NCBI GenBank assembly: GCA_016181305.1
Contig: JACOZN010000005.1
Location: 1-64,000, forward strand
Source: Candidatus Woesearchaeota archaeon
GTDB lineage: Archaea; Nanobdellota; Nanobdellia; Woesearchaeales; GW2011-AR4
DNA: 64,000 nucleotides
Direction of reading: 5' to 3'
Positions 54,327 through 59,434 of this stretch are shown piece after piece. Every line of letters begins with the position of its first letter. The stretch's first letter is position 1. A model generated the notes under the pieces. It saw only the letters and a program-made list of their open reading frames with translations. It searched no databases and was not told where the DNA came from. Both the position numbers and the translations under genes were made by a program.

Positions 54327-54917
54327 TTAACTCAATTCCGTGATGATTTTTTCGACTTGCCTTTCCAGATGCCCCAAGCCCTTGTTGTTGTCAACCACAA
54401 AATCAGCATATTTCAGCTTTTCATTTAGCGGCATCTGCGCCTTTAAAATCTTTTCTATTTGCAGCCTTGTGAATCTTTTGTTTCTTTTCAGGATGTTTTC
54501 CCTGCTGCATTTTACAACAATGACTTTGTCAACCAGATTTTTTGCCTTTGTCTCAAGCAATAAGGGCGCATCAATAATTATTTTTGCATTTTTGCCGCAT
54601 TTTTTCTGGACTTGCTTAATCTGATTTTTAATTTCTTCAATAATCGGGGAATGCATGATTGAATCCAGTTTTTTTAATTTATTTTTATCTCTGAATACTG
54701 CATTGCCTAATTTTTGCCTGGCAATATTCTTGTTTTTATCTAAAATGCGGCTTCCAAAATTCCTAACAAGCTCTTTTTGGATTCTTTTGTCTTTTTTCAG
54801 TATTTCATGCCCTATCCCGTCGGCATCAATCCTGCTGTAATGATGCCTGCTGAAAAGTTCTGCAACTGCAGTTTTCCCCGAGCCGACCGAGCCTGTGACG
54901 CCTATGATCATATTCAC
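54327..54917 (-). CDS. coaE: Dephospho-CoA kinase, bacterial CoaE type
   Basis: IIGVTGSVGSGKTAVAELF...IDADGIGHEIL...IIDAPLLLE. Confidence 0.93.
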   Translation of the reverse strand: MNMIIGVTGSVGSGKTAVAELFSRHHYSRIDADGIGHEILKKDKRIQKELVRNFGSRILDKNKNIARQKLGNAVFRDKNKLKKLDSIMHSPIIEEIKNQIKQVQKKCGKNAKIIIDAPLLLETKAKNLVDKVIVVKCSRENILKRNKRFTRLQIEKILKAQMPLNEKLKYADFVVDNNKGLGHLERQVEKIITELS

Positions 54918-55696
54918 AACAAGTTTGCAAGCTTCTTTATATCCTTATTGGCAACGTGAGTGTAAATCTGGGTAGTCTGCAGGCTTGAATGCCCGAGCAG
55001 TTTCTGGATGTGCCTTATGTCCGCGCCTGCCTCCAAAAGATGGGTGGCAAAGCTGTGCCTCAAGGTGTGGGGTGTTATTTTCTTTCCGATTCCAGCCCTT
55101 TCTGCTGCATTTTTAACAATCATCTGGATTGTCCTTTTATCATACTTTTTCCCCAGGTTTGACATGAAGGCAAAGCTTTCTTTTTTAATGCCCAGGTATT
55201 CAATGAAATCCTTTAGCTTGCCATGCAGGAAGATTATTCGTTCCTTCCCGCCTTTTGCTATCTTAAGGTGAATAACATCCCTTTGAAAGTCAATGTCTTC
55301 CCATTTCAGGCTCACTATCTCGTTAAGCCTTATGCCCGTGTAATATAGAAACATCAGGACTAACCTATGCTTTAGGTTTAATGTTGCCTGAAGCATCTTG
55401 CTTATTTCCTCTTTGCTCAGGACTACTGGAAGCTTGCCTTTGTTTTTTGCAAGAGGTATTGTCTCATCGAACTTCTGCCTCAAAACATTCTCGTAAAAGA
55501 ATTTCAGCGCGAAATACACGCTCCTTATGCTGGAGCGGCTTTTATCGGCATACCCAAGCAAAAACTCCCTCGGCTGAAGCCCAGACTCAATGAACTTCCT
55601 TATTATCAATGCATAAGCCTTTTCAGTCTGCCTTGAGTGCTTCCTCAGCCTCAGCTCTTCAGACAGCTTATTAAGGTAAACATGCGCATCTTCCAT
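54914..55696 (-). CDS. xerA: Tyrosine recombinase, XerA/XerC/XerD family
   Basis: YYTGIRLNEIVSLKWEDID...HTLRHSFATHLLEAGADIRHIQKLLGHSSLQTTQIYTHV. Confidence 0.95.
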   Translation of the reverse strand: MEDAHVYLNKLSEELRLRKHSRQTEKAYALIIRKFIESGLQPREFLLGYADKSRSSIRSVYFALKFFYENVLRQKFDETIPLAKNKGKLPVVLSKEEISKMLQATLNLKHRLVLMFLYYTGIRLNEIVSLKWEDIDFQRDVIHLKIAKGGKERIIFLHGKLKDFIEYLGIKKESFAFMSNLGKKYDKRTIQMIVKNAAERAGIGKKITPHTLRHSFATHLLEAGADIRHIQKLLGHSSLQTTQIYTHVANKDIKKLANLL

Positions 55697-55746
55697 AAAG
55701 CTAATGAATAACTATAAGTATATAAAAACTTCGCTTTAACATATCT

Positions 55747-55789
55747 AACACCTATTAAACAGCAATTAAAACTGCGTTTAATAGTTGTT
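55747..55789. repeat. 14-bp-arm inverted repeat (1 mismatch) upstream of xer; dif/att candidate
   Basis: AACACCTATTAAAC ... GTTTAATAGTTGTT. Confidence 0.55.
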
Positions 55790-55921
55790 AAAATCAATTA
55801 TTACTCGGGGCACACGACGAAACGGAGGGGGCACACTCACTACGTTGATACGAACTTTATACATTTATTAGGAGAAATTGAGGCGAAAAGTTTATATATC
55901 TGTTGTATATACACTGGCTAT

Positions 55922-56182
55922 ATGACAACCGAAATGATTACTCTAAAGCTTGATGATATGTTCTTGAAAGAGATAGACTCTATTGTGGAGAAACAGGGTT
56001 ATCATAACAGGACAGAATTTATCAGAAATGCACTTAGAGAGAAAGTAGAAGATACAAAAATAAAGGATGCAATGATACAAATTGCCCACTTGAAGGGCGC
56101 TTCCAAGAAGAAAACAAGTGATGCAGACCTTGAGAAGATTAGGGAAAAAGTTTTCAATGAATTAGACAAAAAAGTTAGATAA
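55922..56182 (+). CDS. Ribbon-helix-helix (CopG/NikR-like) DNA-binding protein, putative antitoxin
   Basis: MTTEMITLKLDDMFLKEIDSIVEKQGYHNRTEFIRNALREKVED. Confidence 0.85.
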   Translation: MTTEMITLKLDDMFLKEIDSIVEKQGYHNRTEFIRNALREKVEDTKIKDAMIQIAHLKGASKKKTSDADLEKIREKVFNELDKKVR

Positions 56183-56591
56183 GATCTTCTGGTTTGTGAT
56201 GTTTTGATACATCTTCCAGCTTTCTGAAATGTCTGTCTCTTGTTACAAGGATTAAGTCGTTGTCTCTTGCTATTATAACGTGCAAAGCATCTCCAGCAGG
56301 AACATCTCTTTCCTTTGCAATTTTTTTGGCTTCTTCTCGCTGTTTTTCTGTAGCAATAATCTTTTTTATAATTTTTTCAAAAGGCTTAAACATTCCATTG
56401 ATTTCTGCAACTGAATAAAGTGTCTCAAGTTCTTTTATAAGAAAATCGGTAAGCACAATAGCACTTTCTTTTGCTTTTATTTTGACAAGCAGCTTAAAGG
56501 CGTAATCGCCTAGTGGCTCATTGTTATAGCCTTTCCTATCTTCATAAAGATCAACCCAAATTGAAGTGTCTATTATGTATTCTTCTGCCAT
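56175..56591 (-). CDS. PIN-domain protein, putative toxin
   Basis: MAEEYIIDTSIWVDLYED...AGDALHVIIARDNDLILVTRDRHF. Confidence 0.85.
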   Translation of the reverse strand: MAEEYIIDTSIWVDLYEDRKGYNNEPLGDYAFKLLVKIKAKESAIVLTDFLIKELETLYSVAEINGMFKPFEKIIKKIIATEKQREEAKKIAKERDVPAGDALHVIIARDNDLILVTRDRHFRKLEDVSKHHKPEDLI

Positions 56592-56712
56592 AGTAAGCAA
56601 GTGATTGTATGGGTATTTATAATTTACTAGTTCTTTGACGTGAAAAACCATAGCAAAGTTTTTATATGTACATTTAGGTTTTCGTATATGGGGTTGGTAA
56701 ATAAAGCTCAAA

Positions 56713-59055
56713 ATGGTTAAAGGCTATTGTAAGTATTGTTTGTCTGGAAAAAAGGAAGAAGTAGAACAATGTCCCCATTGTCAAAAACATTTTTGTAGTG
56801 AGCATATTACTCCAATAGAGCCTGGTTCTTATCGTCCAGAAAAATCTCGCATATTTATTAATCAAATAAGACTAGGTCATGAAAATACTCATCCATGTCC
56901 TGATTATGTTGATTACTTAGAAGAACAAAAAACAATTCACGGCAAAAAATATGGAGAAGCATTAGACAAATTATTAGGTAGTACTCCAAAGTATAAACTT
57001 CCTTTATCGGAAAGACAAGAAATAAGGGATACAAGGCATAATATTGCTAAAGAAAATGAAGAATTTAATAAAAGTGTTAATGCTAAGCTTGAGGTGGATA
57101 TTCAAAGAAGAAAAGAGGATAAAATTAAACGTAAAGAACTAGAAAAAGAGAAACATAGACAAGAGATTGAAGAAAAGGAGAGACTTAGTAGGGAGATAGA
57201 GGAAAAACAAAAAAAGCATTTGAAAAAACAAGAAAAAGATGAGCCTTACCTTTACAGGTATATTTCGCCAGAAGAGAGAAAATCCAATCAACCACCAAAA
57301 GTACCTGAAAAATATAAAAAAGAGCATGTAGGGACAGCACACCATCATCATGAAACACCCAAGGAAGAAACTGCAAAAGAAAAATATTATAAAAAAGAAG
57401 AATCTGGCATTTTTTCAAAGTTAAAAATTAATAGAAAGAATTTTTATGTGGTTGGCACAATAATTTTATTATTACTTGTCGGATTATTCTATGGGACCTC
57501 AGCCAAAACTATAATTCAAGAAATCAAGAATGTATCCAATACAAAAACTATAAGCTCTTACGAAAATATCTCAAATAAAATCTCATTTTCTAACTATCTT
57601 AATGATATTTATGCATTTGATAAACAAGAAGTTACATTAAATGGTTTTCTTGAAAGAAGCGTTGAAGGAGATGGCAATGCTGGAGTTCATGTATTTTCAA
57701 TTGTAGATGACTACAACAATAGAGTTGTATTGGAATGGTCTTATAATAACTTAAAAAAATATTTACCAGATTTGGGAAAAACAAAAGAATTGTATTCTGT
57801 TCAAGGAATTTTTAAGAGAGAATACAAGACTTTAAAATTAAATGTCGAAAACATAAATATCTATAAAAGAGAACCAGCTAAACAAGTAGAAGTAAACAAT
57901 ATAGTAAGCTATACTGAGCAAATTACTATAAACAGAACAAGTCCAAAGTATCCTTTGGTTAGAAATTTGGTTTTTAAACTCATAGGTAAAGAAATTATTT
58001 GCGAGGATGGTACAAAAATTGATTCTTGTTCTAATGAAAAACCACTATACTGCTCTATTAATGGACTAAAAGAAGAACCAGCAAAGTGTGGATGTCCTTC
58101 AGGCAAAAGATTGTACCAAAATCAATGCATAAATGAAGTCAAATGCTCAGATGGAACTTATGAGCCAGAATGTTCAAAAAATAAACCAAAACAATGCGTG
58201 AATGGGAAACTTGTTGACAATCCAGAAGTATGTAACTGTCCAGAAAACTATAAAGTAAAAGATAAAAAATGTGTTTATATCAGATGTTCTGATGGAACTA
58301 TCGAGCCAGATTGTTCTGCAAAAATGAAGATGCAATGTATGGAAGGCAATTTTATTTATAATCCAAATAAATGTGGTTGCCCAGATGGTTATGTCAAAAG
58401 AGGAAATAATTGTGTAAAAACTTGCAGCGATGGAACTGCGTATGACGAATGCTCTGATGATATGCCTCTTTATTGTGATAATGATGCATTAATAAACAAA
58501 GCGTCAATTTGTGGTTGCCCTTCTGGTTCTGGCTCAAAATATAAACAATCAGGAGAACTATGTTTAGATTTGTCAAATCCAGATATAGAGTATATAGAAG
58601 AAAAAGTTCATGAACTAATAAACCTACAAAGGCAAACAAATGGACTGTCAAAATTATCCTATGACACAAAACTTGTACAAATTGCAAGAGCCCATAGCCA
58701 AGATATGGCTACAAATGACTTCTTTTCCCACGACAATTTACGTGGGGAAGACCCAACCGATAGAGCAAGTAAAGTAGGCTATAATTGCAGAAAAGATTAT
58801 GGTTCATATTATACAAACGGTATTGCAGAAAATATTCACCAAGGTTGGACATATGGAACAACATGGTATACAAATGGTGTTGAATCTAGTAAGGAGTGGT
58901 TAATGCCTGACGAAATATCAGAAAGTGCTGTTACTGGATGGATGAACAGCCCAGGTCATCGCAAAAATATACTAACAAACACGTATGATAAAGAGGGAAT
59001 AGGCGTAGCAGTAGCATCAAATGGTGCTGTTTACATTACGCAAGATTTTTGTTAA
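56713..59055 (+). CDS. AN1-like zinc finger + coiled-coil + TM + Cys-rich repeats + CAP/SCP domain protein
   Basis: CKYCLSGKKEEVEQCPHCQKHFCSEH; TM VGTIILLLLVGLFYG; CSDGTxxxxC repeats; CAP domain VHELINLQRQTNGLSKLSYDTKLVQIARAHSQDMATNDFFSHDN...TGWMNSPGHRKNILTNTYDKEGIGVAV. Confidence 0.85.
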   Translation: MVKGYCKYCLSGKKEEVEQCPHCQKHFCSEHITPIEPGSYRPEKSRIFINQIRLGHENTHPCPDYVDYLEEQKTIHGKKYGEALDKLLGSTPKYKLPLSERQEIRDTRHNIAKENEEFNKSVNAKLEVDIQRRKEDKIKRKELEKEKHRQEIEEKERLSREIEEKQKKHLKKQEKDEPYLYRYISPEERKSNQPPKVPEKYKKEHVGTAHHHHETPKEETAKEKYYKKEESGIFSKLKINRKNFYVVGTIILLLLVGLFYGTSAKTIIQEIKNVSNTKTISSYENISNKISFSNYLNDIYAFDKQEVTLNGFLERSVEGDGNAGVHVFSIVDDYNNRVVLEWSYNNLKKYLPDLGKTKELYSVQGIFKREYKTLKLNVENINIYKREPAKQVEVNNIVSYTEQITINRTSPKYPLVRNLVFKLIGKEIICEDGTKIDSCSNEKPLYCSINGLKEEPAKCGCPSGKRLYQNQCINEVKCSDGTYEPECSKNKPKQCVNGKLVDNPEVCNCPENYKVKDKKCVYIRCSDGTIEPDCSAKMKMQCMEGNFIYNPNKCGCPDGYVKRGNNCVKTCSDGTAYDECSDDMPLYCDNDALINKASICGCPSGSGSKYKQSGELCLDLSNPDIEYIEEKVHELINLQRQTNGLSKLSYDTKLVQIARAHSQDMATNDFFSHDNLRGEDPTDRASKVGYNCRKDYGSYYTNGIAENIHQGWTYGTTWYTNGVESSKEWLMPDEISESAVTGWMNSPGHRKNILTNTYDKEGIGVAVASNGAVYITQDFC

Positions 59056-59186
59056 TATTAAAATTTATCACCCGATTACTACTACTTTTAACTTGAGTGT
59101 GCCCCTTAATTCTCATCCTTGACGTATCGCTGTCGCTCATTTGATTGGACGAACGAGTGTCCCGAGTAATAACTTTTCGGGCGAAA

Positions 59187-59211
59187 TTTTACCCCACTTC
59201 GTAGGGTAAAA
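59187..59211. repeat. Hairpin TTTTACCC-cacttcgta-GGGTAAAA
   Basis: Perfect 8-bp arms. Confidence 0.7.
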
Positions 59212-59225
59212 GAGATTAACAAGAA

Positions 59226-59379
59226 TTAGGCGGTTCGCAGGGTCGCTTACGCTAAAACGCCAAGCGTTTTCCCCTGCTCTCCCAAATTTTTGCCAGCTCT
59301 GAAAAATTCTCCATCTCTGAAGTTTGTGGGTTGCCTCAAACTTCGAGGGGAATTTTTCGAGGGCAAAAACTTCGCCTAA
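59226..59379. other. Nested, branched inverted-repeat region; candidate structured RNA or fold-back element
   Basis: Outer stem TTAGGCG/CGCCTAA encloses two hairpin domains: GCAGGG..AAAACGC-caa-GCGTTTT..CCCTGC, and TTTTTGCC..GAAAAATTCTCC..GAAGTTTG..CAAACTTC..GGGGAATTTTTC..GGCAAAAA. Confidence 0.7.
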
Positions 59380-59434
59380 TAAGTTAGTTTCAATAATTTT
59401 TAGTGGCTAAACGACTGATAGGGGGACATTCCGC

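Follow-up and report, generated by a model that had tools for sequence, protein, structure and literature searches.

RESULTS

A folded stretch within a larger boxed site

What is the strongly folded stretch at positions 59226 to 59379 of the window, i.e., of the 64,000-nucleotide piece of archaeal DNA analyzed here? An earlier note, made from the sequence alone, had proposed a candidate structured RNA lying in a gap of about 380 bp between genes. The gap runs from 59056 to 59434 (379 bp), and every stem named in that note is present. Folded as RNA, the stretch has a minimum free energy of -63.5 kcal/mol on the + strand (z score, -6.36) and of -66.6 kcal/mol on the - strand (z score, -6.98), and in neither case did any of 200 dinucleotide shuffles equal it.

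The natural unit is longer, as it also comprises two hairpins at 59173-59186 and 59187-59211 and short outer boxes at 59214-59220 and 59383-59389. The second hairpin had been noted as a separate structure; it is real and belongs to the same unit. Position 59226, at which the stretch begins, coincides exactly with the ↓TT of the left half-site (the arrow marks the boundary). The site itself spans 59214-59389 and reads GATTAAC-N5↓TTAGGCG ... CGCCTAAT-AAG↓TTAGTT, that is, 1L (TAAC), five bases, the ↓TT of 2L, then 2R, a spacer and the G↓TT of 1R. This order of boxes, 1L-2L ... 2R-1R with a G↓TT junction, is that of integron attC sites. The parts of the unit are as follows.

59173..59186, +: hairpin A (CTTTTC-GGGC-GAAA region); covariation in 65 copies
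59187..59211, +: hairpin B (TTTTACCC/GGGTAAAA); covariation in 65 copies
59214..59220, +: outer left box 1L, GATTAAC; TAAC near-invariant
59224..59232, +: inner left box 2L, AATTAGGCG; left half-site ↓TT at 59226
59237..59277, +: interior domain 1 (GCAGGG ... CCCTGC, with inner hairpin AAAACGC/GCGTTTT)
59284..59372, +: interior domain 2, a long hairpin carrying GTGGGTTGCCTC at its apex
59373..59380, +: inner right box 2R, CGCCTAAT
59383..59389, +: outer right box 1R, G↓TTAGTT; the cut is predicted to fall between 59383 and 59384

Long sites have an interior with domains 1 and 2, short sites have just 8 to 13 nucleotides between the boxes, and solo sites are reduced to the left half, TAAC-N5↓TTATACGC. 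When the folded bottom strand was checked for extrahelical bases, the unpaired spacers between the boxes were found to be unequal, and the inner box had no clear single-base bulge.

Copies in relatives covary

When 99 related genomes were searched at the DNA level, 56 showed patchy matches, often several per contig, 1 to 2 kb apart and with short ORFs in between; the two named records that carry the apical motif are from Candidatus Woesearchaeota. The aligned copies share a conserved block directly upstream of the stretch, composed of hairpin A (whose loop is usually GGAC), hairpin B and TAAC, followed by the stem of the stretch. A covariance model built on this block, R1, detected copies in 57 of the 99 relatives and in 67 of 237 genomes sampled across the phylum. 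It also found two in the window's own genome (C5:59163, + strand, and C21:23480, - strand), which ruled out the single-copy element suggested by a BLAST search of that genome. The feature, for which the earlier note had asked whether copies occur elsewhere, is thus not isolated.

The second copy in the same genome (L130:5340-5600, - strand) is of the subtype AACACATATTTCACG ... CGTGAAATATTGTACGTTAT, also present in relatives (L029, L030, and L032); the upstream flank ACTACAGTGCCTCTCAGATTTACGGTGTC is common to L030, L032, and L130. Several contigs end at or inside sites, among them L084 (G005:C61), which ends inside a recombinase-side site (see below), L044 and L018, indicating that short-read assemblies probably break there and that arrays are probably undercounted. 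An exact pattern scan of viral contigs gave no match, with a pattern too strict to exclude viral copies.

The compensatory changes in homologues that the note had called for are abundant, and covariation is strong in the two upstream hairpins. Among 65 distinct copies, 95.9% of the cells were paired, compared with 75.1% after shuffling, and 176 cells carried double-sided compensatory changes, compared with 50, counts that are favored to some extent by the fitting of the alignment to the model's own structure. None of 500 shuffles reached any of the measures, and structures slid along the alignment collapsed. An independent MAFFT alignment of 19 copies showed double changes in 11 of 14 pairs. 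The interior covaries as well, with compensatory double changes in 21 of 32 consensus pairs across 15 long sites.

The loop of hairpin B contains an insertion of approximately 85 to 90 nucleotides in one copy (L041:10950-11105, - strand) and a short additional hairpin (CCGCTTCGCTCG) in several others, showing that it tolerates insertions.

The upstream cassette has ends that match each other

The "putative cassette" that the earlier note had placed beside the stretch was borne out. A second, small site at 55743-55795, directly upstream of a recombinase gene (54914-55696), delimits a gene cassette whose other border is the site described above.

54914..55696, -: XerA-family tyrosine recombinase, 260 amino acids, divergent from the cassette; motifs GIRLNE, HTLRHSF, LGH, and YTH; no IntI-specific region
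55743..55795, +: recombinase-side (attI-like) site: ATCTAAC, hairpin CTATTAAACAGCA/TGCGTTTAATAG, TTG↓TTAAAATC; conserved to ↓TT near related recombinases
55788..59383, +: gene cassette, ↓TT to ↓TT, 3.6 kb
55798..55816, +: left cassette end, arm 1 (TTATTACTCGGGGCACACG); pairs with 59154-59172
55827..55839, +: left cassette end, arm 2 (GGGGGCACACTCA); pairs with 59094-59105
55922..56182, +: cassette gene for a ribbon-helix-helix protein, likely antitoxin (Pfam RHH_1)
56175..56711, -: cassette gene for a PIN-domain protein, likely toxin (Pfam PIN); the true start may be downstream of the listed one
56713..59055, +: cassette gene for a 780-amino-acid CAP-domain protein (Pfam CAP)
59094..59105, +: right cassette end, arm 2 (TGAGTGTGCCCC)
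59154..59172, +: right cassette end, arm 1 (CGAGTGTCCCGAGTAATAA); complementary to 55798-55816 at 16 of 19 positions
59384..59431, +: left end of the next cassette, decayed or truncated; matching right end not found in the window or on the contig

The cassette ORFs are not uniformly oriented. The CAP-domain protein (56713-59055) represents an unusual cargo: it begins with a cysteine-rich segment resembling a zinc finger, and a probable membrane segment and several short repeats rich in cysteine also precede the CAP domain.

The two ends of the cassette are complementary over 16 of 19 and 12 of 12 bp, though they lie 3.3 kb apart. Among 20 cassettes, the two ends of one cassette were more complementary to each other than to other ends (Mann-Whitney P = 6e-8) or to the flank across the same site (P = 2e-4), with site positions and junctions partly curated by hand and related cassettes not fully independent. 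When circle junctions were folded, with the same provisos, the cassette's own left end was the best of approximately 42 in 10 of 18 cases (binomial P = 3e-9), and the window junction reached -84.6 kcal/mol, compared with -67.8 ± 3.4 kcal/mol with other ends. Transposon-like inverted repeats would pair too. Nevertheless, ends that pair within the cassette are what is expected of a circle, and no hint of a circular, foldable intermediate is stronger than the match between ends that only a circle would bring together.

Sequences switch partners at the ↓TT boundary

One right-hand sequence (TTnnnnnCAATAATTTTTAGTGGC...) was found behind eight unrelated left partners in eight genomes, with the switch exactly at ↓TT. 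One of these junctions is that of the window at 59384, and another is at the recombinase-side site of a different genome (L046:1852). Four different partners precede a second right-hand sequence (...AATTATTACTCGG), one of them in the window at 55788, with the switch again at ↓TT. A break in homology at ↓TT every time is the signature expected of site-specific recombination.

The copies in arrays lie on one strand, 0.4 to 3.5 kb apart. Neighboring copies shared a strand in 17 of 17 cases, with at least two sites in the same orientation within 4 kb. Of the 16 R1 copies located within 15 kb of a recombinase gene, 14 lay 5′ of it in opposite orientation, and many other copies are singletons far from any recombinase. 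In relatives with a close recombinase, the recombinase-side site is kept up to ↓TT and is then followed by different cassettes. Such a conserved hairpin site upstream of related recombinases corresponds to the primary insertion site of an integron. Three observations, namely the partner switches at ↓TT, the complementary ends and the conservation of the recombinase-side site ahead of differing cassettes, identify 55788-59383 as a cassette.

The recombinase is XerA-like and lacks the IntI-specific region

The catalytic motifs of the window recombinase are intact, and its best matches in the PDB are the XerA proteins of P. abyssi and T. acidophilum. It scored 210.6 bits with the XerA profile NF040815, below the cut-off of 220 bits, and a paralogue (L078) scored 268.2 bits, above it. 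With the IntI profile TIGR02249, it reached 184 bits, below the cut-off of 265, in a match split in two pieces. The IntI4 structure also aligned in two pieces, with approximately 45 residues absent from the window protein, which thus does not have the IntI-specific (I2) domain. The matches to the IntI profile in 59 relatives likewise skip its positions 182 to 237, approximately, and none of these 59 genomes encodes a protein over the IntI cut-off. In a tree, the clade of the window recombinase stands apart from the XerA-like rest, and more than one clade is represented among the recombinases near arrays. Because XerA serves housekeeping in most archaea, the adjacency of sites and recombinase genes may be partly coincidental.

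The paralogue belongs to a second XerA-like clade (L078:12839-15170 on contig C12 of the same genome; also L031, L042, and L088). Its genes adjoin a dif-like site (ACTTCGCCTAATCCGTATTATACGAACTTTT in L042) and have cassettes of their own with a different site core (AAGTTCGTCTAATGCCCA ... GGGCATTATACGAACTTTT), the apical GTGGGTTGCCTC domain being common to both. Apparently, the cells have two cassette systems, of which this is the second.

A probable attC-like site, weighed against its alternatives

We consider it probable (approximately 0.78) that the cassette ends, on its 3′ side, in an attC-like site whose folded core is 59226-59379, and that this site belongs to an integron-like system run by a XerA-type recombinase. 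In the mechanism that we propose, a XerA-family recombinase, most likely that encoded at 54914-55696, would cut the outer boxes at G↓TT, with the folded single strand as its putative substrate. Excision would turn the cassette 55788-59383 into a circle by joining 59383 to 55788, with CGCCTAATAAG↓TTAAAATC as the junction. The complementary ends would pair in that circle and complete a large branched fold that contains hairpins A and B and the site, and the circle could then be inserted at the recombinase-side site, 55743-55795.

As for the choice of strand, wobbles in the conserved helices favored the bottom strand 11:0 in 19 copies but just 22:11 in 65 copies, and we dropped this asymmetry as proof of a preference. 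In single-strand DNA folds of 15 sites, 24 G.T pairs were on the bottom and 5 on the top strand.

The proposal of a structured noncoding or cis-regulatory RNA was right about the structure, which folds strongly on both strands and covaries across relatives, but its RNA part appears hardly tenable. No Rfam family matched the window at the gathering threshold; a looser search gave just far-below-threshold matches, and the miRNA families that it returned under an E-value threshold were rejected for that reason. G-U pairs make up only 11 of 900 cells (1.2%) of the conserved helices. The single U-G wobble of the 12-bp stem, which had been read as a hint of pairing at the RNA level, is uninformative, because the A-C mismatch held by that stem (59284-59294/59362-59372) is a wobble on the other strand. 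Furthermore, the whole interior is missing from the short and solo forms, homology switches at ↓TT, either side of which occurs with different partners, and complementarity extends to the far cassette end. Conserved boxes, ↓TT breaks, and pairing with a distant end are features of a DNA recombination site as judged from sequence, and together with the rare G-U pairs and the dispensable interior they argue against an RNA gene.

A true IntI, acting in trans or present in an ancestor, might have built the array as a CALIN, with the nearby XerA-type gene serving housekeeping only. The box order matches that of attC, and archaeal CALINs have been published, Nanoarchaeota included (PMC9668308). We regard this as rather unlikely given the lack of proteins over the IntI cut-off in the 59 relatives, the clustering of copies 5′ of XerA-type genes in opposite orientation, and the conservation of the recombinase-side site beside those genes. 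The inverted-repeat ends of the cassettes and the dispersal of copies over many genomes could also suit a nonautonomous fold-back or terminal-inverted-repeat transposon. However, the end sequences vary between cassettes and match within one, the arrays are head to tail with one shared site per junction, the junctions are site specific, and no transposase was found in the sample of window and array proteins searched in Pfam, making such an element highly unlikely.

DISCUSSION

The arrangement of sites and cassettes appears to work like an integron. We do not file it as one because the recombinase lacks the IntI-specific domain and because the signs of extrahelical bases and of strand choice are mixed. 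As in the IntI/attI/attC systems, including archaeal integrons and CALINs (Ghaly et al. 2022, PMC9668308), the recombinase gene is divergent from the array and adjoined by a site, cassettes are parted by palindromic sites with YYYAAC ... GTTRRRY-like outer boxes, inner boxes and a G↓TT junction, and the cargo consists of small accessory genes that include toxin-antitoxin pairs. In contrast to integrons, the recombinase has no I2 region, the site interior is either large and branched or almost absent, two additional covarying hairpins lie upstream, the cassette ends are mutually complementary, and the recombinase-side site is itself a hairpin. The archaeal survey identified integrases by the IntI-specific domain (PMC9668308), and I2-less recombinases would have gone uncounted there.

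Dimer resolution by archaeal XerA at dif (PMC8371274) involves the same recombinase family, and a dif-like inverted site lies beside the second XerA-like gene of the genome (L078). However, dif is a short duplex site without cassettes, whereas here the site is followed by inserted gene arrays. An I2-less Xer enzyme that works on a DNA hairpin, as the enzyme would here, also serves CTX phage and other Xer-exploiting elements (IMEX; PMC7790495). In their case a phage genome mimics dif, in contrast to a multicassette array beside its own recombinase gene.

In PMC7790495, the I2 helix, which is known from IntI alone, is presented as a requirement for capturing cassettes and as the source of single-strand recombination, and forms intermediate between Xer and IntI are noted to be missing. 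Our literature search, the coverage of which was short on subscription journals and excluded preprints, found nothing linking XerA with integron arrays. We judge it an even call that, in Woesearchaeota and their relatives, a XerA-type recombinase without I2 captures circular, folded cassettes on integron-like platforms, as an independent invention of the integron or as a survivor from before IntI acquired I2. The complementarity of the cassette ends, apparently an undescribed feature, points to selection on the circular form. Cassette arrays that track I2-less Xer-type recombinases across an archaeal order would offer candidate Xer-IntI intermediates, show gene swapping in archaea with tiny genomes, and make the origin of integrons testable in the laboratory.
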